Positions 2,340-23,290 of a stretch of 50,930 bases of DNA are shown piece by piece. The translations under genes and the position numbers were made by a program. Where the stretch lies: assembly GCA_017552965.1 (NCBI GenBank), contig JAFZNQ010000076.1, positions 86,035 to 136,964 on the forward strand, given 5' to 3'. The notes beneath the pieces are model-generated. The model saw only the letters and a program-made list of their open reading frames with translations, had not been told where the DNA came from and did no database searches. Position 1 is the stretch's first letter. The number at the start of each line of letters is the position of its first letter. The DNA comes from Abditibacteriota bacterium. Lineage in GTDB: Bacteria > Armatimonadota > UBA5829.

Positions 2340-4817
2340 CTACCGCTTTATCTCAAAGTTGATGAGCGCCGAGGCCGGGCTTTGGTCCCGGACGATCCTC
2401 AGGCCCTCCGCCAGCCGGGCTCCCTTTATCTCCCACTCTTCTCCGGTGTCCGTATCCCTCACCACGTAGGTCTTGTCCTTACGGAGGTCCCTGAGGCGCA
2501 CCTCCACCGTGTTGTCCGGGCAGTCCTCCCGCCGGAAGGCCAGCAGGACTCCCCTGCCCTCCTCGGGCCTGTGGAACTGGAAGACGGTCCAGATATCCCG
2601 GCCCGTCCCATAGGGCGTCAGGGGATAATAGTCGCCCAAGACAAAGGGCGCCGCGCAGGTCATCAGCTCGTCCAAAGCTCCCCGCATGGCCCCGTAGTCG
2701 AGATCCCTGCGGCGCAGGTCCCACAGGGTGTTCAGGGAGGGGGCAAAGCAGCTCCTGATGCCGTAGGTGTCAAAGGAATTGGTCACGGTGCCCGAGTAGG
2801 GCAGCCAATAGCTTATGCCGTAGGTGTGGTTTTGCTCGCCTTCCGGGTCCCCGGCGGAGTCGCTGCGCAGCAGCGGCAGGGCCCTTCTCATGGTCTCCGG
2901 GTCGTTGCGCTGGCCTCCGGAGGCGCAGGCGTCAATGATCAGATGGGGGAATCTGGCCCGCAGGGCGTCCAGATATGCCAGATAGCCCATGACGTATCTG
3001 ATCTCGGTCATGCCCCTTCTTCCAAAGGTGTCCGCCGCTCTCCAATAGGACGCGGGGGCTATGTTGTAGTCCTGCCTGTACACGTCGATCTTTTCTCTCT
3101 CTATCATGTCGCCCACGTGTCCGGTGAGCCAGGCCAGGCATTCCGGATCTCCCAGATCCAGCAGGGTCCCTCCCAGCAGCCATTCCGGGTGCTCCCGGGC
3201 CAGCCGGGACTCCGGGTCCCCCACCCGTTCCGGCTCAAACCACACTATCACGCCGGAGCCCCTGTCGTGAGCGTAGCGGCTCACCTCTCCCAGACCCAGG
3301 GGAAAACGCTCCGGGTCCGGCTCCCAGGTGCCCGTGCGGGCCCACTCTCCCCCGCAGGGATACCAGCCGGCGTCCATCCACCAATATGCCGGATGAAAGC
3401 CCTCTGCCGCGTATCTGTCGATAAAGAGCTTCTGGGACCGGGCGTCCGCCCGGGTCATTTCCCCGTACCACAGAGAGGAGCTGGCCACGTGCATGGGAGA
3501 CGCGTTTTTCGGCATGCCCCAGGCCAGCATGTAGCTGCGCCAGATATTCTGGGCTCTCTCCCAGTCACCGCTGTAATTCATGACCATCGACAGAGGCGAG
3601 CGGACCTCTTCTCCGGGATACAGGGTAAAGGCCGCCATCTCAAAGCCTCCGGAAATGCGGGCCCGGTCCCCCTCGGACACAAAGTCGCAGCGCCACTGTC
3701 CGGGCCAGCCTACCACCGCTATGAGGCCGCCCCGGCCTCCGGTCTCCAGATTGAAATAGGGCCAGTCGCTGCCGGTGCAGCGCCCCGTAGCCGGAAACAC
3801 GGACACAGGCTCTCCCTCTGTCAGCAGGGTGGTCATGGGTCTGTAATCCGTGGGGGTGATGGCGGCGCCGGCGGCGTGATGGAGAAGAAAGGGACCCTGT
3901 CCGGGCGCAGTGATATCCAGAGAACGGATGTCACTGAGGATGGGAGTATTCTCACTGCCGTTGTTCCTGAACCACAGCACCCATTCGGACACGGGGAAAT
4001 CGACATAGTCCGTCCTCTCGCAACGCAGCTCCAGCCCCGTGGCGGGATCCCGGTAGACCTGAGTGGTCCGGGTGCGGCTCCCGTCCGGCTTTTCCGTGAC
4101 GGCGCTGTATTCCCACCCGGGCAGCAGCTCGTCGGAGGAAGAGTCGCCGTATCTGAAGAAAAAGGGAGTGTCGGAGGGGCCTCTCGGCGGCAGGGAGGCG
4201 GCGTTTTGCAAAAAGCCCAGCTCGCCCAGCAGGGTGGCCTTCCCCCGGGAGTCATACACAGCCACGTCTCCCCAGTCCGACTGGTCGCAGGCTATGTCAT
4301 CTCCGCCGTCTGTGACCATCAGATGGATGGAGTCGGTGGCCGGCAGAGGGATGTCCACCGGGACGGGGTCCATACCCTGACGGCACAGGGGCGACCTGTA
4401 GAGCTCTGCGCCCACGGAGTCCGTGATGACGAATTCCACGCTGCCTCCGCCGGAGCGGGCGTCCAGGCCCACCTCCGCGGTGAGCCTCACGGAGTCCTCC
4501 GGCAAAAAGGCCTCCACGTCCGAGACCGCGTGGGCGTATATGCCGGTCCTGTATTCCCTGTCCCCTATCCTCAGGGGCTCGCCGCCCCTTTCGTTGAGAA
4601 ACACCGGGTCGTGGTTGGCATGGACGAACAGCCCCGCGGGGCGGCCCCCTTCGGCGGCCGTTCCCGCAGCCGGGACGGAGGTCCGGGGCCGGGCAAAGTG
4701 AGCCTTGCGCCAGGCCCGGGCATCCTTCAGTTCCTTTTGGGTCGCTGTTGCCGCCGTGGCGGACAGAGCCGCCGCAATGAGCAGCAACAACAGCGCAGGC
4801 AGTAAGATGTTTTTCAT
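2340..4817 (-). CDS. secreted GH36-type alpha-galactosidase with N-terminal NPCBM domain
   Basis: The 825-residue protein begins with a signal peptide (about 1-23), followed by an NPCBM-type carbohydrate-binding domain (about 50-190, with GIYAHAVSDVEAFLP). The GH36/melibiase body runs from about 200 to the end. Its motifs include YWWMDAGWYP, VIVWFEPERV, DVYRQDYN (nucleophile Asp about 583), DACASGGQRND and RSDSAGD (acid/base Asp about 653). Family knowledge predicts retaining hydrolysis of terminal alpha-galactosides outside the cytoplasm. The leader has an extended -10 promoter and a large GC hairpin (4852-4905). A second, longer GH36-like protein is encoded at 20337. The exact substrate cannot be read from sequence. 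Confidence 0.9.
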   Translation of the reverse strand: MKNILLPALLLLLIAAALSATAATATQKELKDARAWRKAHFARPRTSVPAAGTAAEGGRPAGLFVHANHDPVFLNERGGEPLRIGDREYRTGIYAHAVSDVEAFLPEDSVRLTAEVGLDARSGGGSVEFVITDSVGAELYRSPLCRQGMDPVPVDIPLPATDSIHLMVTDGGDDIACDQSDWGDVAVYDSRGKATLLGELGFLQNAASLPPRGPSDTPFFFRYGDSSSDELLPGWEYSAVTEKPDGSRTRTTQVYRDPATGLELRCERTDYVDFPVSEWVLWFRNNGSENTPILSDIRSLDITAPGQGPFLLHHAAGAAITPTDYRPMTTLLTEGEPVSVFPATGRCTGSDWPYFNLETGGRGGLIAVVGWPGQWRCDFVSEGDRARISGGFEMAAFTLYPGEEVRSPLSMVMNYSGDWERAQNIWRSYMLAWGMPKNASPMHVASSSLWYGEMTRADARSQKLFIDRYAAEGFHPAYWWMDAGWYPCGGEWARTGTWEPDPERFPLGLGEVSRYAHDRGSGVIVWFEPERVGDPESRLAREHPEWLLGGTLLDLGDPECLAWLTGHVGDMIEREKIDVYRQDYNIAPASYWRAADTFGRRGMTEIRYVMGYLAYLDALRARFPHLIIDACASGGQRNDPETMRRALPLLRSDSAGDPEGEQNHTYGISYWLPYSGTVTNSFDTYGIRSCFAPSLNTLWDLRRRDLDYGAMRGALDELMTCAAPFVLGDYYPLTPYGTGRDIWTVFQFHRPEEGRGVLLAFRREDCPDNTVEVRLRDLRKDKTYVVRDTDTGEEWEIKGARLAEGLRIVRDQSPASALINFEIKR

Positions 4818-11092: not shown

Positions 11093-12286
11093 CTAAGCAG
11101 ACGAGCCGCCGAATACCCTGCCGAAAAAGTCCGCCGCGGCTTTGAAGGAGCCGGCCACAGCCTGCAGCAGACGGGTCAGAGGCGTCCCCTCTTTCTTCGC
11201 CTCGGGCGCAGGCTTTGCACCTGGCCCGGGCTGAACAACAGGCGCCTTCATATGCAGGAGTTCGGGAGCCTTCCTCAAGTATTCCTTCTGCCTTTTTTCC
11301 GACAGATCCGACCTGCGCAGCTTGCCGGGATAAGAGGGCTCCGGGCCCCCTTCCCGATAACTCCGGTTCTGCATTTCCCCGACTCTGAATCTCTTGATGC
11401 GGCCCTTGCCGTTCCACCACAGGAGATTCCCTTCAAACCTACCTAAACGTGTCGCTTGTCCTCCTGAGGCTTTCAGTCGCTCTTCGTTATATGCCATATC
11501 CTCCTTCGAAAGGATCACCTTCCAGTGCTCGGCAAGGCCGTCGGGATAGGTCATACGGACCACGTTGTCGGTCAGGATAGTCACCGCGGGATACCACTCG
11601 GGAGGTATATAGCCTGCGGAGCCCTGGAGCCCGTCATACCATACCGCTCTTGTATTATCGTAGATTTGGACCAGCACCTTGCCGGCAGTCTGCCTGATAT
11701 AATAGGTTTCTCCGGGAGTGGCTACCATATATCTGCCGTCCGGCAGGACCGCCGCGTCGGGATGGGGAACGGCGGCCAGAAGCCCCTCCTTTATCCGCCG
11801 GTCGCCGGTGAACGTCGTGTACCACACGATATTTTTGCCCCGCCTTATTGCCGAAAGGCAAAAGTCGCCTCCGAAATGCCCGCCGTCCGACTCCCGGATC
11901 AGACGCAGCTCGTAGGCAAAGCCGTTGCCCATATCGAATGATTCCAACAGCTTGTACCCGTCAAGAGACGCGGAGGGATCCTTGTCTATCTGCTGCAGCA
12001 GTTCGTTGGTGGTATACGAATACTCAAAATTCGAATGGACCGACGAAGACCACCTGTGGGTTTCGTTGATCCATATAAATCGGGCTTCGGCAAAGGTTTC
12101 CCGGCAGATCGAGATCGACGGATAGGGCTTTTCCTTCGCATATTCCGCCAGATAATAAGGCAGCCGCTCCACCTGCTTCCGTCCGCCTTTGACCGGCTCG
12201 TCGGCAAAGAGCGGAGCCGACAGCAGCAGCAGCGCCGCCGCCAGCAGCGCCGACAGCAACAAGTAACTCCATAATTTGTTTTTCAT
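11093..12286 (-). CDS. unrecognised exported protein, paralogue family member A
   Basis: This is a 397-residue protein of no family I recognise. It has a signal peptide (about 1-29) and a mixed region with GDRR, LPDGRYMVATPGETYYIRQ, VTILTDNVVRMTYPDG and AEHWKVILS. A WWNGKG strand and REGGPEPSYPG follow, then a Pro/Lys linker and a Phe-rich amphipathic tail (AAADFFGRVFGG). The same motif order is found in the proteins at 12521 and 16139, so these are paralogues. GGGAG precedes the ATG, and a promoter lies 70 bases upstream inside a duplicated cassette. It is probably periplasmic or surface-associated; function unknown. Confidence 0.8.
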   Translation of the reverse strand: MKNKLWSYLLLSALLAAALLLLSAPLFADEPVKGGRKQVERLPYYLAEYAKEKPYPSISICRETFAEARFIWINETHRWSSSVHSNFEYSYTTNELLQQIDKDPSASLDGYKLLESFDMGNGFAYELRLIRESDGGHFGGDFCLSAIRRGKNIVWYTTFTGDRRIKEGLLAAVPHPDAAVLPDGRYMVATPGETYYIRQTAGKVLVQIYDNTRAVWYDGLQGSAGYIPPEWYPAVTILTDNVVRMTYPDGLAEHWKVILSKEDMAYNEERLKASGGQATRLGRFEGNLLWWNGKGRIKRFRVGEMQNRSYREGGPEPSYPGKLRRSDLSEKRQKEYLRKAPELLHMKAPVVQPGPGAKPAPEAKKEGTPLTRLLQAVAGSFKAAADFFGRVFGGSSA

Positions 12287-12520: not shown

Positions 12521-13531
12521 TTATGCAAACAGCCCGGCAAAGACCCTCTTTATCTTCACTATCAAGCAGACAAACAGATTCTTTTTTTCCTTGAAGCCTT
12601 TGCTGCCTGCCGGCTCTTTTTCAGGCGAATGAGACCGCGCTTCTTTCTTTACCGCAGGCGCTTTTGAGCGCTCGATGATCGTATCATAATCCGGCTCGGC
12701 GCCGCCTTCCCAATAATTGCAGTGTTTTAATCTATCCGGTCTGCCATATATGGGTCTCGGGTGTTTTCCGTTGCTCCATATAATAAAAGGCAAAACTGTT
12801 TGAAAACTGTAGTGGGGAATCAGACACTTATCCTCAGAATCTATTTTGTAGATTTCCACTCTGCCGCTGTCAAAAGTATATCGATACACATCCTTGCCGA
12901 GAATATCACACCGGTCGGGAGTGTTCTCTTTGTTCATTCTCCACTCTTCTATAAACTGTGCCGTGTCGTAGGTCTCGGCTACCAGCTTGTCACCGACTTT
13001 GAAGACGTAATACACATACCAGGCCGTCACTATCATATATTTGCCATCCACAACGCGCGCAGTCAAAAAACGGCCTCCGAGAGAATACCACACGATATCA
13101 TTTCCATCCTTCAGGATATTCAGTTCGTTGGTATCATCTAAACGAATCGACTTGTCCGGCAGGACATACCGCATCGCCACCAAACTGTCGGAGAGCTCCT
13201 TTCTATAAACCAGCTTACCCGCAGCCATCAGCTCGGGCAAGCGTTTTTCCCAGTCGGTATCAACATATCCCCAGCAATGCATGGTATACGGTTCATCTCC
13301 GATTATGGATCTGCGCACAAGAAACAGTCGGCAATTCGGATGATTTGAAGCGAGGTCCACCGCATAGTACCGCCCTGTCGGTGTCCTCGTATAAGGCTCC
13401 AGAAAGGAAGGATACGGATTATGATGAGCATACTCTCCGGTATCGACAGCGGCTTTGTCCGCCCTTTCTTCGGCAATCACGCCGGCTGCAAAAGCAAGAA
13501 GCAATACGAAAACACAAAGAACGACTCTCAC
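12521..13531 (-). CDS. unrecognised exported protein, paralogue family member B (AT-rich)
   Basis: The protein has 336 residues from a GTG at 13531, chosen because GGGAGG lies six bases upstream and the GTG opens a clean signal peptide (VRVVLCVFVLLLAFAAGVIA). An upstream TTG in frame is less likely. Family motifs are VDGKYMIVTAWYVYYVFK, the DRC...VYRYTFDSGRVEIYK region, EGGAEPDYD, and a Lys/Glu linker ending in RVFAGLFA. Base composition is clearly more AT-rich than neighbours. The GTG overlaps the stop codon of the preceding ORF (GTGA), pointing to translational coupling. Function unknown. Confidence 0.75.
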   Translation of the reverse strand: MRVVLCVFVLLLAFAAGVIAEERADKAAVDTGEYAHHNPYPSFLEPYTRTPTGRYYAVDLASNHPNCRLFLVRRSIIGDEPYTMHCWGYVDTDWEKRLPELMAAGKLVYRKELSDSLVAMRYVLPDKSIRLDDTNELNILKDGNDIVWYSLGGRFLTARVVDGKYMIVTAWYVYYVFKVGDKLVAETYDTAQFIEEWRMNKENTPDRCDILGKDVYRYTFDSGRVEIYKIDSEDKCLIPHYSFQTVLPFIIWSNGKHPRPIYGRPDRLKHCNYWEGGAEPDYDTIIERSKAPAVKKEARSHSPEKEPAGSKGFKEKKNLFVCLIVKIKRVFAGLFA

Positions 13532-14055
13532 AACAAACCTCCCGGACAAACGAAAAACGACGAGTCCAAATCATCGTATTCGTATGAAAGAATATCATGC
13601 GGAGAATGATCGTCATAAGTTGTAACATAATCCGGTCTGCCGGCCGGATCACCGGAATACGAAAAAGTATACAAATCGTCTGCATAATATTCTTCACAAA
13701 CATTGCCCACCATTTTATAATCTATGTCACTGAAACCCGTTAGCAGATCCAGTTCTTCGTTTACCGGAACGATAAAATTGAATTTGCCGTTATCTGACAA
13801 AACTTTGAACCCATCAAACGAGGTATAAACAGCATCATTGGCCCAAAACGTATTCTCATGATACGGATAAAAGGTCATTCGTCCTTGTCCATTCAAAAGA
13901 AAAGGATAGAATTGACCGCATACTCCGGGAATTCCGATCAAACAAAGTACCCAAGTGGTTGTATGAAATACAACACACCTATTTAAGACGCTACGGCAAA
14001 ACACAGGCAAATCAAACCGCGATTTATATAAAGGATCCTCCTTTTTGCAGTTCAA
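13528..14055 (-). CDS. uncertain AT-rich ORF coupled to member B
   Basis: This open frame of up to 175 codons is on the same strand and has the same AT-rich composition as the next gene. Its TGA overlaps that gene's GTG (GTGA). The C-terminal 115 residues look like a genuine hydrophilic, Tyr/Asp-rich protein (FYPYHENTFW, FSYSGDPAGRPDYVTTYDD). The start is unclear: no ATG exists near the promoter at 14107, TTG at 14055 lacks a ribosome site, and the AAAGGAGG at about 14040 has no start codon at the right distance. A short hydrophobic stretch (TTWVLCLIGIPGVCG) could be a remnant signal peptide. It may be a 5'-damaged gene; no family recognised. Confidence 0.45.
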   Translation of the reverse strand: MNCKKEDPLYKSRFDLPVFCRSVLNRCVVFHTTTWVLCLIGIPGVCGQFYPFLLNGQGRMTFYPYHENTFWANDAVYTSFDGFKVLSDNGKFNFIVPVNEELDLLTGFSDIDYKMVGNVCEEYYADDLYTFSYSGDPAGRPDYVTTYDDHSPHDILSYEYDDLDSSFFVCPGGLL

Positions 14056-16138: not shown

Positions 16139-17152
16139 TCACGCAAAAAGCTCCGCAAAGAAGGTCTTTATCATGCCCGGGAGCAAGGCGGGAAAGCCCT
16201 TGGCTTCACCGGCATCCAAGGCCGCGGCCTTATCCTTGCGGCCCACGGTCTTTTCATAGCTTATATCGGAGTAGCTTTCCGGAGCAGGCTCGGGGCCTCC
16301 CTTACGGAAGCACCACATCTCCTTTGGGACCTTACCTCCCGTCCCACTGAACACAGAGCCGTTGCGCCACAACAGACACTCGTTGGCGTAAAACCACTCA
16401 GGCTGGGCCGAATCCGGACGGTAGTATTTTTCTATGTTCTTTTCTACGTCTTTTGCCGACAGCCGCACCTTCCAGTGTTCGATGGCTCCCCCTTTATATT
16501 TCAGGGAAATCACGTTATCCGTGAGTATCCTGACCTCCTGCGGGCCATCCCAGGGCCTGAACCACATCCGTCCCCCCGTATATTTCTCCGCAACGAGCCT
16601 TTTGGGGTAAGCCCTGACGTAATACACAGTCCATGGCGTGGCGATCATATATCTGCCGTCATCCAGGAGCCTGACATCCCCCGGGGTCTCGCCTGTCCCG
16701 TACCATATGACCCTGCCCTTATCCTTTATCACCGAGAACGGCCGGTTCATCTGATAGTCGGCAAGGTGCCCTGCGTCGTATTGCAGGATCTCATATCTGC
16801 CATGTTTTACGGTGCGCTTTATCAGCCCCGGCATCTCCCGGCACAGCTTGTCTGTATTCTCATGGTTTCTGCTCAGAAAATGGCGGTAGTCGTAATAATA
16901 TCCTCTGAGGAGAGGTTTTTGATCAAGACGTTCGTCAACAACGATCATTCCGGCGCCGGCGATATTCCAGTTGTAGCACAGGACCTGCGACCTGTATAAC
17001 GGACTGTCGGGGGCATAATAGACGCCGTTCAGATAATCCGGCACCGTGAAAAAGGGGACGAACAGCATCTCCGGTCTGCGCGCTTTGGCGCAGACTGCGC
17101 CGATGCAGACAGCGACCAGCAATACAAATATAATACAGTGTAGTCGTTTCAT
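16139..17152 (-). CDS. unrecognised exported protein, paralogue family member C
   Basis: The 337-residue protein has a signal peptide (about 1-22, MKRLHCIIFVLLVAVCIGAV). It shares the family core with the proteins at 11093 and 12521: LDDGRYMIATPWTVYYVR, VRILTDNVISLKYKGG, EHWKVRLS, LLWRNG and RKGGPEPAPE. The C-terminal end is again a Phe-rich helix (MIKTFFAELFA) after a charged linker. Similarity to member A is the clearest. GGAGG lies upstream of the ATG, and a promoter with a T-rich spacer is at 17203. Likely exported; function unknown. Confidence 0.8.
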   Translation of the reverse strand: MKRLHCIIFVLLVAVCIGAVCAKARRPEMLFVPFFTVPDYLNGVYYAPDSPLYRSQVLCYNWNIAGAGMIVVDERLDQKPLLRGYYYDYRHFLSRNHENTDKLCREMPGLIKRTVKHGRYEILQYDAGHLADYQMNRPFSVIKDKGRVIWYGTGETPGDVRLLDDGRYMIATPWTVYYVRAYPKRLVAEKYTGGRMWFRPWDGPQEVRILTDNVISLKYKGGAIEHWKVRLSAKDVEKNIEKYYRPDSAQPEWFYANECLLWRNGSVFSGTGGKVPKEMWCFRKGGPEPAPESYSDISYEKTVGRKDKAAALDAGEAKGFPALLPGMIKTFFAELFA

Positions 17153-17234: not shown

Positions 17235-18320
17235 CTACCTGCCGAAGAAGAGGCAAAGGACCCAGGCCCACATCAGAGCCGCCCAGCCGAGGCACACTGC
17301 CTGCCCGCAGCGCCGGCTGCCCAGGACGCGGCCTACGGCGCGGACCGTTCTGCAGCGCCGCCCTTCCGTGGCCCGCAGAGCCTCCCGGCAGGTCTCCCTC
17401 ATAGACTTTGTCTCGGCATAGCCGTCATCCACACCCTCCAGCAGCTCCAGAGCCCGGGCGTATTCCCGCAGCCGGTGAGCCTCGGCGGCGTCCCAGTAAC
17501 GCTGAAAGCTTTCGGCGGCGGCTCCCAGGGCCCGGGCCGACTCGGACAGGCGCCGGGCATCGGGCATGAGGGTCTCCGCCAGCAGAACGGCTATCCTGTC
17601 GTATTTTTCCCGGGAGAGGTTGAACCAGCCCAAACGCCGGGAATGGTCTTTATAGTGCTTGGCGTCCATTGCGCAGGCATCCCAGTCCAATCCTTCCCTG
17701 AAAAGGGGCGCAGGAAAAACCAGATCGCCTATGACTATATGATCCTGTTGCCGCCTTATCTTTCTGAAGTCGGGCATCAGGCGCAGTATTTCTTCGGATG
17801 CCTGCCTGGCCCTGTTTTCCCGTGCGATGGACTCTGTCAGAGCAAAGCGGTCCCCTGTCACAGCTTCCAGCAGCTCCATCAGGCTTTCGCCGGGGAACCG
17901 CTGCCGGGCATACTTGCCCACCCGGTCTATGATGGCGTTGTATTCCCTGTAATATTTATTGATATATCTGTTCCCGGTCCGGGTCTCTCCCCGGCGGTCG
18001 TCATACAGGTCTTCCCAATAGCTCCGGCGCTCCCGATAAGGCTCGGGACAGTACCATTTGCCGCTGTAAACGGGCCGGTCCAGACCTGCGGCGCCGTCAA
18101 GCCCTATACGGATATAAAAATACGCGGCCTCCGCCGCCGCCAGCACTCCGGCCCAGCCGGGGAACCAGAAAAAGGAAGGCTTCGGCATGATCCCCCGCAG
18201 CTGAAAAAACCAATATACTATGTTTGCCGCCAGCAGGCCTACGCAGCAGCCTGCGGCGACGTGAGTCGCCCGGGCCAGCCACAAGAGCAGCCGGCCGCAG
18301 CGCCGGACAAGCGGCTTCAT
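17235..18320 (-). CDS. unrecognised membrane protein with helical cytoplasmic or periplasmic core
   Basis: The 361-residue protein has two predicted membrane segments near the N-terminus (about 13-38 and 48-70) and one at the C-terminus (about 340-358). The middle 250 residues are charged, Arg/Tyr-rich and mostly helical (for example ARALELLEGVDDGYAE), resembling a TPR-like array without clear repeats. No catalytic motif or family is recognised. It starts 16 nt after the metallo-beta-lactamase gene with GGAGAG upstream, and so closes the operon that begins with the GH36-like gene at 23240. Confidence 0.75.
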   Translation of the reverse strand: MKPLVRRCGRLLLWLARATHVAAGCCVGLLAANIVYWFFQLRGIMPKPSFFWFPGWAGVLAAAEAAYFYIRIGLDGAAGLDRPVYSGKWYCPEPYRERRSYWEDLYDDRRGETRTGNRYINKYYREYNAIIDRVGKYARQRFPGESLMELLEAVTGDRFALTESIARENRARQASEEILRLMPDFRKIRRQQDHIVIGDLVFPAPLFREGLDWDACAMDAKHYKDHSRRLGWFNLSREKYDRIAVLLAETLMPDARRLSESARALGAAAESFQRYWDAAEAHRLREYARALELLEGVDDGYAETKSMRETCREALRATEGRRCRTVRAVGRVLGSRRCGQAVCLGWAALMWAWVLCLFFGR

Positions 18321-18336
18321 CCGTCATACTCTCCAT

Positions 18337-19368
18337 TTATCTCACAAAGGGCTTGCTGTCGGTAAGCAGCGCGACCCCCTTTCGGGAAAGCCTTACGCCT
18401 ACGGTGCCGTTCACGTTGGTGCGGTAGTGGGGCGCGTGGTGCTCCTCTGCCCAGGGCTGTATCTCCGACTTGGGCTCGTAAATATACTTGTCGTGGGCGT
18501 TGCCGTCCATGCTCACCACCATGTCCGGCGACACCGCGTCCATAAAGCCCTTGTCTATGGGCGTCCAGCTGTGATGCATGCTCTTCAGCACCTGAGCCCC
18601 GGACATCCGGGGGGCTATATGCCGCTGAGCCTCCAGGCTGATATCCCCTGTAAAGAGGACCCGCTGCCCGCCGTAATCCAGAGCGCACACCAGGGAAAAG
18701 TTGTTGTAATCCCCGTTGAGGCCCAGATATTCCATGTCGTTGTTGTAAAAGGTGAGGGATGCTCCCGACAGATACACCTTTTCTCCGTCCTCCGGGCACA
18801 CGATGGCGCAGCCCTGCTCCCGGAGCATATTGACGATCTCCGGAAACAGTCTGTTGGGCTGGTTGTAGGCGGGCTTGTCTCCGGCGGCGAGGCGCTCCAT
18901 GGTCTTCACGTCCGGGACAAACACCACGGCGCCGCGTATATCAAAGCCCTTTTCCACCAGATATTTGAGGCCGCCGGCATGGTCGCCGTGCCAATGGCTG
19001 ATGACTATATAGTCCAGCCTGTCAATGCCCAGCCTGCCGTATTCCCTCAGCAGGTGCTCCGCGGAGCTCTCGGTCTCTTTGTGATAAGGGACAAAGGTGT
19101 CCGTCACAAAATCGATGCCCAGTGTCTTGCCGCCGGGCAGCTTTATCACAGAGGCGTCGCCGGCGCTGAAATAGCGGTGAGGCACCCCGCCTATAAAATA
19201 CACGTCCGTATAGCTCTTCAGAGAGCCTCCGCAGGCCGCCGCCCCGCACAGCAGCAGGACAGCCGTCAATATGACCCACATCATCGAAGCAAGCCTGCCG
19301 GGAATGCCGGCGCAGTCCTCGGCGCTCCGACCGGCCCCGGGACCATGGTCTCGTCTGTCTGCATTCAT
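18337..19368 (-). CDS. exported metallo-beta-lactamase-fold hydrolase, ComEC-C-terminal type (copy 2)
   Basis: The 343-residue protein has a hydrophobic export segment (about 29-46, possibly with a lipobox Cys46) and an MBL domain. The metal motif SHWHGDHAGG gives His125, His127, Asp129 and His130; further ligands lie in VLFTGDIS and SMHHSW. This set resembles the extracellular nuclease-like domain fused to ComEC. GAGG six bases before the ATG supports a start at 19368; a second ATG at 19284 would give a more standard signal peptide. It is a tandem duplicate of the gene at 19372, and the last 50 residues are almost identical. Substrate unknown: nucleic acid, phosphodiester or lactone are all possible. 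Confidence 0.85.
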   Translation of the reverse strand: MNADRRDHGPGAGRSAEDCAGIPGRLASMMWVILTAVLLLCGAAACGGSLKSYTDVYFIGGVPHRYFSAGDASVIKLPGGKTLGIDFVTDTFVPYHKETESSAEHLLREYGRLGIDRLDYIVISHWHGDHAGGLKYLVEKGFDIRGAVVFVPDVKTMERLAAGDKPAYNQPNRLFPEIVNMLREQGCAIVCPEDGEKVYLSGASLTFYNNDMEYLGLNGDYNNFSLVCALDYGGQRVLFTGDISLEAQRHIAPRMSGAQVLKSMHHSWTPIDKGFMDAVSPDMVVSMDGNAHDKYIYEPKSEIQPWAEEHHAPHYRTNVNGTVGVRLSRKGVALLTDSKPFVR

Positions 19369-19371
19369 ATC

Positions 19372-20334
19372 TTACCTCACAAAGGGCTTGCTGTCGGTGA
19401 GCAGCCCTACCCCCTTCCGGGAAAGCCTTATGCCCACGGTGCCGTTCACGTTGGTGCGGTAGTGTGGCGCGTGATGCTCCTCTGCCCAGGGCTGTATCTC
19501 CGACTTGGGCTCGTATATATACTTGTCATGGGCGTAGCCGTCCATGCTGATCACCATATCCGGATCGATCTTCGCCATAAAATCGCCGTCCACCGGCACC
19601 CAGCTGTGGTGCATGCTCTTCAGCACCTGCACCTTGGTCATATCGGGAGCCATATGCTTCTGGGCCTCCGTGTCGCAGTCTCCCGTAAAGAGCACCTTTT
19701 GCCCCGCGTATTCCAGACAGCATACCAGAGAGTAGTTGTTGTAGTTCCTGTCAAAGCCCAGATATTCCTGCTCATTGTTCCAAAAGGTCAGGGAGGCGCC
19801 GGAGAGATACACCTTGTCCCCGTCCCGTGGGCTCACTATCCGGCAGCCCCGTTCCTCCAGCATCCCGGTGATCCGGGGACAGAAGCTCCTTATTTCGTCA
19901 TAAGCGCCATGGGGGTCTGTGTATAGCCTCTCTGCCGTGGCCATATCCGGGACGAACACAGTGGCGCCGGCCAGGTCGAAGCCCTGCTCCATGAGGTATT
20001 CCAGCCCTCCCGCGTGGTCGCTGTGCCAATGGCTGATGACTATATAGTCCAGCCTGTCTATGCCCAGCTCCCTGTATTGCTCCAGCAGATATTCTGCTGC
20101 CGTGACCGGCTTGCCCTTACCGTCAAGACAGAAGTCGACCGTCTTGTCATTTTTGTTGAAGTCTATCCCCAGTGTCTTGCCGCCGGGCAGTCTGACCACG
20201 GTGGCGTCGCCGGCGCTGAAATAGCGGTGTATGCCGCCGCCTATGAAATACAGGTCCGTATAGTTTTTCAGGCCTCCGCACCAGGCCGCCGAAGCAGAGG
20301 CGCAAAATGCGGCCAGCAAAAGCAGTATCTTCAT
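19372..20334 (-). CDS. exported metallo-beta-lactamase-fold hydrolase, ComEC-C-terminal type (copy 1)
   Basis: The 320-residue protein has a signal peptide (MKILLLLAAFCASASA) and an MBL core. SHWHSDHAGG gives His102, His104, Asp106 and His107, with VLFTGDCD and SMHHSW also present. The ATG at 20334 is preceded by GAGGAG and lies two bases after the stop of the GH36-like gene, indicating coupled translation. The start of copy 2 follows three bases after its stop. Compared with copy 2 it carries a short insertion (KNDKTVDFCLDGKGKP). Association with a glycosidase suggests that both act on an exported or external substrate. Confidence 0.87.
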   Translation of the reverse strand: MKILLLLAAFCASASAAWCGGLKNYTDLYFIGGGIHRYFSAGDATVVRLPGGKTLGIDFNKNDKTVDFCLDGKGKPVTAAEYLLEQYRELGIDRLDYIVISHWHSDHAGGLEYLMEQGFDLAGATVFVPDMATAERLYTDPHGAYDEIRSFCPRITGMLEERGCRIVSPRDGDKVYLSGASLTFWNNEQEYLGFDRNYNNYSLVCCLEYAGQKVLFTGDCDTEAQKHMAPDMTKVQVLKSMHHSWVPVDGDFMAKIDPDMVISMDGYAHDKYIYEPKSEIQPWAEEHHAPHYRTNVNGTVGIRLSRKGVGLLTDSKPFVR

Positions 20335-20336
20335 CA

Positions 20337-23240
20337 CTAAAACTCCTCTATCACCGGCAGCATCTCCGCGGTGCTTCTGAACCTTTTGCCCACCAGGCAA
20401 AACACGGTCCTTCTCTTCACGTCCTTATCGATATAATACAGATATGCCGTCGCGGATATTTCCAACGAACGGGAATTGGCTGCCCACAAGTAGTATCTGC
20501 CGTTTTTTTCGCCCTTAAAGAGCTTCACGCCCCGGATGCCTTCGCCGCTGAGATAGGTTTTCTCCGTATCCAGGGGCAGCCACCCGGCCCCCATGCTTTC
20601 CGTCAGGTCTCCGGCGCAGGGGAGCGCCTCCCAGATGCTTTTTGCGCACCGGTACACCGTTCCCGTCTTGTCCTCATCATAGCATACGAAATACACCGCC
20701 CTTTCCCCCGGCTTGTCCCATTCACTCACGTGGAGCAAAAAGGGCTCCGACCACTCTATGCCGCCGTCTCTCATCACTCCCAGCCTTCTGGACTCCGTCT
20801 TGGCGCCGCCGTCCAAGTCCCCGAAGGTAAAGGTATTGTCCAGCCACAGGAAGCAGCAGTCGCCCTCCCGCCGCGCGTAGGCGGACACGTCGAAAAAGCC
20901 TCCCTCGGGCCATATGGTCAGGGCCCTTACCACGTCCATTTCCAGATACAGGCGGGCGGGGTCCAGCTTCCGCCAGCCGTCCGCCGTCTCCGCTCCGGAA
21001 AAAGGCAGCCGGTCATAGAGGTCCCTGCTCAGGCTGTAGATACCGCCCGAGGTGTCGTAGTCCGGGCCGGCATACACCAGAGAATTGGGGGCCGGAGTAT
21101 TCCTTCGGTATTCCGCGCACAGAGCCTTCATATCGTTCTCGCCGCTGAAGGGCAGTCTGTCTATGAGGCTTATGGCTTCCGCCGCGGCGGGCTCGGTGAC
21201 CGGCAGGTCGGTGACGCTGTATTCCAGACAGGGAGCGCAGGCCTCCCGGGGCCTTTGGACTATCACCCCGACTGTCATCATATCGCTGCCCTTCATCACC
21301 CGGGACGCGCCGGGGTCGTCCCGGTCCGTGACGAGATAATTGCTGTCGGCCTGCAGACCCTTGCACACAAAGGCAAAGCCTCCGCCCCGGCGGAGATAGC
21401 CTATGAGCATGCCGCAGCCCTTTTCGGGGTCGTTCATCTGCACTGCCATGTTCCTTTCGCCGGACAGGTCGTAGTCCGTGAGCGTGTAGTAGTCCTTCAT
21501 GAGATACTTGTGGTCATAGCGCCATTCGTCCAGCACCTTCAGGGTGTCCGGGCCCACGGGGTCGATGTCCACTCCCACGCTCAGGGACAGCCGGGAGCGT
21601 ATCTCGTAATTCGAAAAATGGTTGTATAGTACGGAGCCCGTGAATACGTACCACATATTGCAGCCGAAGTTCTGACACTGCTGAGGCAGGGTAAAGCTCC
21701 AGAAATCGGTCTTGGTATGCATGAATGAAAAGCGCATGGTCTCCAGGTCGTTGCGCCGGCCCCCCGAGGCGCAGGAGTCAAACAGCATGCCGGGGTATTT
21801 TGCCGCCAGGCGGCTCCAGTATCGCAGATAGCCCGTGCAGGCGTGGTTTTCCGTGGCCCCCAGCCGCGGGATGCCCATCTCCTCCTCCTGCTCCCTGTCC
21901 CTGTTGGTCCAGAAAGGCTCGTGGTTGGTGTTGAAGTCCTGGCGGTAAAGGGTCAGGCCAAAACGGCTTATGAGGTCGTCTGTCAGGCGGAAAATGTGGT
22001 CCCCGGCGCGCTTGCTGCCCATGTTCACCACGGCCAGCCTGCCCTCCCGCAGCAGGTCCTCCTCCCGGAGGCTGCGCTCCATATCCGTGCCTTCGTAGCA
22101 GCGCTCCGGCTCTATCCAGAAGCAGAGCCCCATGCCCTGCCGGCGGCAGTGCTCGGAGATGCGTTTCAGGCCCTCTTCGCCTTCGTAGTCGGGAGCCGGG
22201 TTCCAGTCTCCGGTCTCTCCGGGCCTCATGCGGGTGCAGTCAAACCAGCCTCTTACGCCGCTGTAATCGTATTCCATGACGGTAAAGTATTTACGGGCTA
22301 TCTCTCCCACCCAGGGCGAGTCGATGGCAGCCAGGTCGGCTGCCAGGTCCTGGTTCAGAGGGGAGGCCACATACACCAGCTCGTCAAAGCGTTTGCGGGT
22401 GTGACGGAACAGATTGTGCTTTATGATCCACCGGCGCCACAGGTTTTGCCCCTCCTGCCAGTCGGAGCCCTTGTAAAACATCAGCGCCGTTCCCGGCAGG
22501 CGTATCTCCTCGTGAGGCAGCAGGCAAAGCCCGGTCTTCCCCTGGCCGCAGGCCAGACGGAGCATGCCCCGGGACATACGGGCCTTCATGAACCAGTTGC
22601 CCTGCCAGTTGACGGCGGCTACCACCCCTCTTTTGGGGCCGGAAAAATTGAAAAAGGGCAGATAGTCCTGGGTGGGGAGCCCGGTCACCGTGCGGACCTC
22701 CAGCTCCCCGGAGCCCCGGATCTCTCCGGTAAGGGGCTCATATTCTATGGCGGAGCAGGGTATGGTGGTGCCCCGGTTGTAGTGGACCAGAGCCTCCCCC
22801 TTCATGACCTCCGCATCCAGGGAACAGACGTCCGCTATGAGCCCTGAGTTGTCGTCCGACAGATTGACCAGACGGGCGTCGTATTCCACCACGGGAAAGC
22901 CGGGATACACTGTCTCCGTCACAGTGAGCATCAGCTGCTCCTCCACGCACACCAGATCTCTCACCCGGGTGAGCCTTTCCGCCGGGGCCTCCGACAGGTC
23001 ATAATCCCTGTGGCGGGTGACCACTTCACCTCCCCCGGTCCACAGGAGCTCCGAGGAGGGCCGGCCGTTCAGGGTAAAGGACACAGGCGCCGTGCCGGAC
23101 AGGTGCTCGCTCCGCCATCTGTCGGCGGCCGAGCAGTCCGACACACGCTCCTCAAAGCCGGTCTCCGCATATGCGCAGACCGCGAGCAGCGTCAAAAGGA
23201 GAGAGCAAAGAACGTTCACAATGTCAGCCTTGGGTATCAT
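20337..23240 (-). CDS. exported GH36-like glycosidase with long C-terminal repeat region
   Basis: The 967-residue protein has a signal peptide (about 1-25). The GH36/melibiase-type domain (about 40-640) shows WFDCTR, CFWIEPERC, LYRQDFN (nucleophile Asp about 435), DSCASGGRRND and a later TKTDFW (Asp about 512, acid/base position). About 300 extra residues follow, containing two related modules that each begin with DLYDRLPFSG or SIWEALPCAG and contain a W..LD.....YL pattern. This tail is not part of ordinary alpha-galactosidases. The ATG has no Shine-Dalgarno; an in-frame GTG eight codons later has AAGG upstream and is an alternative start. The gene begins 14 nt after the thrC terminator. Confidence 0.85.
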   Translation of the reverse strand: MIPKADIVNVLCSLLLTLLAVCAYAETGFEERVSDCSAADRWRSEHLSGTAPVSFTLNGRPSSELLWTGGGEVVTRHRDYDLSEAPAERLTRVRDLVCVEEQLMLTVTETVYPGFPVVEYDARLVNLSDDNSGLIADVCSLDAEVMKGEALVHYNRGTTIPCSAIEYEPLTGEIRGSGELEVRTVTGLPTQDYLPFFNFSGPKRGVVAAVNWQGNWFMKARMSRGMLRLACGQGKTGLCLLPHEEIRLPGTALMFYKGSDWQEGQNLWRRWIIKHNLFRHTRKRFDELVYVASPLNQDLAADLAAIDSPWVGEIARKYFTVMEYDYSGVRGWFDCTRMRPGETGDWNPAPDYEGEEGLKRISEHCRRQGMGLCFWIEPERCYEGTDMERSLREEDLLREGRLAVVNMGSKRAGDHIFRLTDDLISRFGLTLYRQDFNTNHEPFWTNRDREQEEEMGIPRLGATENHACTGYLRYWSRLAAKYPGMLFDSCASGGRRNDLETMRFSFMHTKTDFWSFTLPQQCQNFGCNMWYVFTGSVLYNHFSNYEIRSRLSLSVGVDIDPVGPDTLKVLDEWRYDHKYLMKDYYTLTDYDLSGERNMAVQMNDPEKGCGMLIGYLRRGGGFAFVCKGLQADSNYLVTDRDDPGASRVMKGSDMMTVGVIVQRPREACAPCLEYSVTDLPVTEPAAAEAISLIDRLPFSGENDMKALCAEYRRNTPAPNSLVYAGPDYDTSGGIYSLSRDLYDRLPFSGAETADGWRKLDPARLYLEMDVVRALTIWPEGGFFDVSAYARREGDCCFLWLDNTFTFGDLDGGAKTESRRLGVMRDGGIEWSEPFLLHVSEWDKPGERAVYFVCYDEDKTGTVYRCAKSIWEALPCAGDLTESMGAGWLPLDTEKTYLSGEGIRGVKLFKGEKNGRYYLWAANSRSLEISATAYLYYIDKDVKRRTVFCLVGKRFRSTAEMLPVIEEF

Positions 23241-23254
23241 ATGGTTTTGGGATC

Positions 23255-23290
23255 AAAAAAAAGACAGAGCAGCCCTGCGGCTGCCCTGTC
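23255..23290 (-). terminator. intrinsic terminator after thrC
   Basis: The minus strand reads GACAGGGCAGCC-GCAG-GGCTGCTCTGTC then TTTTTTTT. It ends 14 bases before the start of the GH36-like gene. Confidence 0.88.

Follow-up and report, generated by a model that had tools for sequence, protein, structure and literature searches.

Four adjoining genes in the genome of an uncultured rumen bacterium (Abditibacteriota) encode a GH36-fold glycosidase, two metallo-beta-lactamase-fold (MBL) hydrolases and a membrane protein (Table 1). We think the chances are about even that they form a small secreted-hydrolase transcription unit restricted to one species or genus, and not a conserved system. None of the other genomes searched had the set, so a local gene group is a better description of it than a new biochemical system. 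Within it, the GH36 protein belongs to a small clade that keeps the catalytic pair of its family and appears to have lost a residue that contacts the sugar. The window is the whole stretch of DNA that we analyzed (50,930 nucleotides). It comes from a 2.78-Mb draft genome (G000) with two genus-mates, G001 and G002.

Table 1. Features of the four-gene group, in window positions
Feature	Positions	Strand	Evidence or remark
GH36-fold glycosidase, 967 aa	20337-23240	-	Pfam Melibiase, motif alignments, fold match
GH36 C-terminal tail, aa 681-967, two divergent repeats	20340-21200	-	
MBL1, putatively exported stand-alone metallo-beta-lactamase-fold hydrolase, 320 aa	19372-20334	-	SHWHSDH, FTGD, MHHSW
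MBL2, tandem paralogue of MBL1, 315 aa (343 aa if ATG 19368 used)	18337-19284	-	
Membrane protein, 361 aa	17235-18320	-	ORFan in searched genomes
Intrinsic terminator after thrC	23263-23290	-	12-bp stem, 4-nt loop, T8

The four genes are real and have an operon-like layout on the minus strand of the window. They lie where the original prediction put them, behind a strong terminator that separates them from hom-thrC. When codon usage was scored with training on other genes of the window, each gene's own frame was the best of six (GH36 +0.246, MBL1 +0.244, MBL2 +0.271, membrane protein +0.150) and all other frames were negative, so the long antisense open reading frames are shadows of these genes. 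No terminator was called within the intergenic gaps of the group, and the four genes are probably cotranscribed. The gaps had been given as 2-16 nt. We reproduced gaps of 2 nt (GH36 to MBL1), 3 nt (MBL1 to MBL2) and 16 nt (MBL2 to the membrane gene), but the 3-nt gap needs the upstream start of MBL2, and the resulting 28-codon extension scores as non-coding (-0.177). The start at 19284, with a gap of 87 nt, is therefore more likely.

The first protein was proposed to be GH36-like, and fold, catalytic residues and sugar-recognition motif all agree. The Pfam Melibiase profile (E 2e-10) covers only residues 331-504. An AlphaFold model built from 28 relatives (mean pLDDT 77.8, mostly above 80 over residues 35-680) has the GH36 fold, with an N-terminal beta-supersandwich, a (beta/alpha)8 barrel and a C-terminal beta domain. 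Its match to GH36 alpha-galactosidases (Foldseek 1.3e-32; Z 28.4 over 584 residues, rmsd 3.7) covers residues 35-678 in Foldseek and VIA, with the tail outside the comparison. Over these residues the fold is common to AgaA/AgaB of Geobacillus stearothermophilus, L. brevis 3mi6 and Paecilomyces 6jhp (Z 25-28), at 13-18% identity, and these enzymes also share the nucleophile, the acid/base Asp and the CXXGXXR motif. The nucleophile D435 (YRQDFN) and the acid/base D498 are invariant in 27 alignable sequences; the roles of this Asp pair in GH36 have been described [PMC5094572, PMC7688924]. CXXGXXR, the galactose recognition motif of subgroup I [PMC5094572], is present as C490, G493 and R496 (CASGGRRND). 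By its fold and catalytic pair, the protein would be a retaining exo-glycosidase. Hydropathy places an N-terminal hydrophobic export segment on GH36, MBL1 and MBL2, and all three are probably exported.

Two features make the window protein unlike known GH36 alpha-galactosidases: it has no equivalent of Asp366, and it carries a C-terminal tail of 287 residues made of two repeats. Asp366, in the numbering of AgaA, is the conserved subsite -1 Asp and contacts the -1 sugar [PMC7688924]. At this barrel strand an aromatic-x-D-A motif is found in 24 of 24 other GH36 proteins compared, whereas the Asp366 column is deleted in all three clade members that span the site and nowhere else in the alignment. 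The region reads YDYSGVRGWF in the window protein, FDYAGAYGWF in a paralogue on another contig of the same genome (G000:C115) and FDYGGSAGWF in the G002 orthologue of that paralogue. The clade thus seems to have lost the Asp366 equivalent, as judged from an alignment that crosses a low-confidence loop (residues 327-330, pLDDT below 50), and a neighboring acidic residue, for example D325, could replace it in the window protein. The missing subsite -1 Asp casts doubt on the proposal that the glycosidase takes off galactose. Given the loss of Asp366 and the gain of the tail, the sugar that the enzyme attacks outside the cytoplasm is most likely a terminal residue that differs from plain alpha-galactose.

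The clade consists of four sequences, all from one rumen Abditibacteriota genus: those of the window genome and those of G002 (MAG: Abditibacteriota bacterium isolate RGIG10284 Yak_Rumen). A scan of the genome collection for the clade matched only two G002 contigs. The tail, predicted as a 300-residue repeat, is indeed a two-copy repeat: its self-alignment scores 77, compared with 27 ± 4.3 (maximum 49) in 500 shuffles. Its modeled structure is mostly beta, with confidence ranging from moderate to low. Both full-length clade members, the window protein and the C115 paralogue, have the tail, and it is absent from 290 other genomes of the phylum. The galactose-recognizing Asp would have been lost, and the tail gained, in a young clade.

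The same genome has about a dozen more GH36-type genes (13 matches, of which two belong to a single gene), spread over many contigs (L050-L060) and including window positions 2340-4817. They fall into several motif classes, one of which has WFDA/RTDS replacing WMDAGW/RQDFN. Some, such as the protein encoded at 2340-4817, carry an NPCBM-type N-terminal domain, unlike the GH36 protein of the four-gene group. On contig C54 (L055, 7379-9193, plus strand), a protein of MBL-flavodoxin-rubredoxin type directly follows another GH36 gene; we rejected it as a relative of the MBL pair, since it is of a flavo-diiron/rubredoxin type by sequence and unrelated to them.

Conservation of the four-gene order, by which the original prediction was to be judged, largely failed to appear: no other genome searched had the set, the G002 contig ending inside GH36. 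When the MBL and GH36 match tables for 60 relatives were read together, no MBL match outside the window genome lay within 10 kb of a GH36 match. The nearest GH36 paralogue (41%) has an antiporter gene beside it, as is also the case in G002. After it come an intergenic hairpin and a gene on the opposite strand, and neither an MBL nor a membrane gene adjoins it. In G002, the orthologue of the window GH36 (66-67% over 309 aa) lies on a contig that has hom-thrC, then sfsA, MatE, pentapeptide and aminotransferase genes, then GH36. G002 is 84% complete, the orthologue is cut by the contig end at about codon 311, and the remainder of the gene was not found elsewhere in G002. Because the contig ends inside GH36, MBL and membrane genes could follow there unseen. 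In G001, genes that by sequence are SGNH-hydrolase-like and sialidase-like come after thrC, and each of the three species in the genus has a different post-thrC region.

This variability, together with the lack of MBL matches close to GH36 (within 10 kb) in other genomes, would also be expected if the genes were chance neighbors, with a secreted glycosidase and a duplicated secreted MBL sharing a transcript through rearrangement and acting on unrelated substrates. However, gaps of 2 and 16 nt without a terminator are typical of genes that are kept together, and both MBL copies are still under purifying selection. The pair is a tandem duplication with 66% identity (dN 0.26, dS 0.76, dN/dS about 0.34). 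The 3' quarter (18337-18560 and 19372-19600) is clearly closer at the DNA level than the remainder, and its greater synonymous likeness (dS 0.38) suggests partial gene conversion. We regard a chance grouping as somewhat unlikely. A restricted secreted-hydrolase unit is the reading that we prefer.

What such a unit might do depends in part on the MBL pair. MBL1 and MBL2 match Pfam Lactamase_B (E about 2e-12 each), and both keep the metal-ligand motifs HxHxDH, TGD and HH. Motif II is SHWH[SG]DH, that is HxHxDH and not HxDxDH. The best solved relative is the pneumococcal phosphorylcholine esterase Pce/CbpE (E 2e-9, 40 bits), with ComEC second. Pce has in common with the pair the MBL fold, the HxHxDH motif II, the motif IV Asp and export, and in the alignment its motif V His also has a counterpart. 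From the solved relatives and motif II, we place the two proteins among metallohydrolases of the ComEC/Pce branch; they would be duplicated, exported, dinuclear enzymes. Their ligands suggest that they are probably phosphodiesterases or esterases, and phosphodiesterase action is plausible.

The likeness to a teichoic acid phosphorylcholine esterase, with HxHxDH as in Pce, and the operon-like layout are what one might expect if GH36 and the MBLs attacked the same extracellular polymer, a phosphodiester-linked glycan, and the four products together made up a single pathway for stripping it. The match to Pce is remote, however, and its choline-binding repeats are missing: both MBL proteins end with the MBL domain and have no Pfam match elsewhere. 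Moreover, the neighborhood is not conserved, no MBL genes adjoin the closest GH36 paralogue, and the unit lacks a transporter or a further glycosidase. We therefore find a single pathway improbable, and the phosphodiester-glycan idea for the group possible but unsupported. We consider it very improbable that a GH36 with a rebuilt -1 subsite and two Pce-like metallohydrolases dismantle a phosphodiester-linked or otherwise charged rumen glycan, helped by the membrane protein as an accessory dedicated to the task. Both the substrates and any joint action of glycosidase and MBLs are ones that we infer. A literature search for GH36 with metallo-beta-lactamase found no described system with this content, in agreement with the original prediction.

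The pair was also described as two exported ComEC-type MBLs. Exported stand-alone MBLs of the ComEC/Pce branch they appear to be, but they lack the HxDxDH and HHGS of ComEC. ComEC/Rec2 is their best NCBIfam profile (E 1e-8), and ComEC nuclease domains in the PDB match at E 5e-7. The C-terminal beta-lactamase-like domain of ComEC (COG2333 type), which shares NNxSLV and TGD motifs with the pair, has Mn-dependent phosphodiesterase and nuclease activity [PMC8579336, PMC12455585], and by analogy the pair might be nucleases that are secreted in the rumen to salvage nucleic acid from outside the cell. Several differences make this extremely improbable. ComEC nucleases have Asp instead of the second His in motif II [PMC8579336]. 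HHSW stands in the pair where many relatives from the phylum have HHGS, and S728 of ComEC, in the HHGS region, is implicated in substrate contact [PMC12455585]. The proteins, at 320 and 315 aa with a single N-terminal hydrophobic segment, lack the transmembrane competence domain and the OB domain, and they have no DNA-binding domain.

Stand-alone exported MBLs annotated as ComEC/Rec2 family, from other bacteria, plasmids and relatives in the phylum, are like MBL1 and MBL2 in size (about 300-350 aa) and mostly in having HxHxDH. Those of the phylum, in contrast, mostly keep HHGS and were not found adjoining GH36 genes. No close relative of the pair was found in 60 related genomes, where long alignments outside the window genome reached at most 32% identity, or in whole-collection scans of GTDB genomes and IMG/VR. 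We rejected a role in defense, since PADLOC gave only weak MBL-fold matches, and a phage origin: the PHROG matches of the pair are phage tail or unknown proteins with the same domain, and nothing else is phage-like.

The fourth product was predicted to be a membrane protein with a helical core. Probable N- and C-terminal transmembrane segments flanking a soluble part with predicted helices fit this description, but confidence in the single-sequence model is too low for it to be used (pLDDT 42), so that the core is helical by prediction only. The charge pattern weakly suggests that the helical part faces the cytoplasm. No Pfam, NCBIfam or PADLOC profile matched the protein, PHROG gave only a marginal match (E 0.008), and no PDB entry matched better than E 1. 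Plasmids yielded no relative, and 290 other genomes of the phylum no counterpart.

Elsewhere in the window, three genes (16139-17152, 12521-13549 and 11093-12286, minus strand) belong to a family of exported proteins of about 340-400 aa with no Pfam or NCBIfam match. The family occurs at 24 loci in this genome and at 20 in G002, and is absent from G001 and 18 other relatives. Such a large expansion of secreted paralogues, confined to part of a single genus, is more striking than the four-gene group.

Overall, the earlier interpretation is partly supported. Because the gene set is not a conserved system, its own weight is small. The GH36 clade is more concrete and can be tested: it has kept the catalytic pair, lacks the sugar-recognizing Asp and is found in a genus of rumen Abditibacteriota, whose rumen members are little studied. 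The activity of the clade would tell whether GH36 has come to act on a new sugar.
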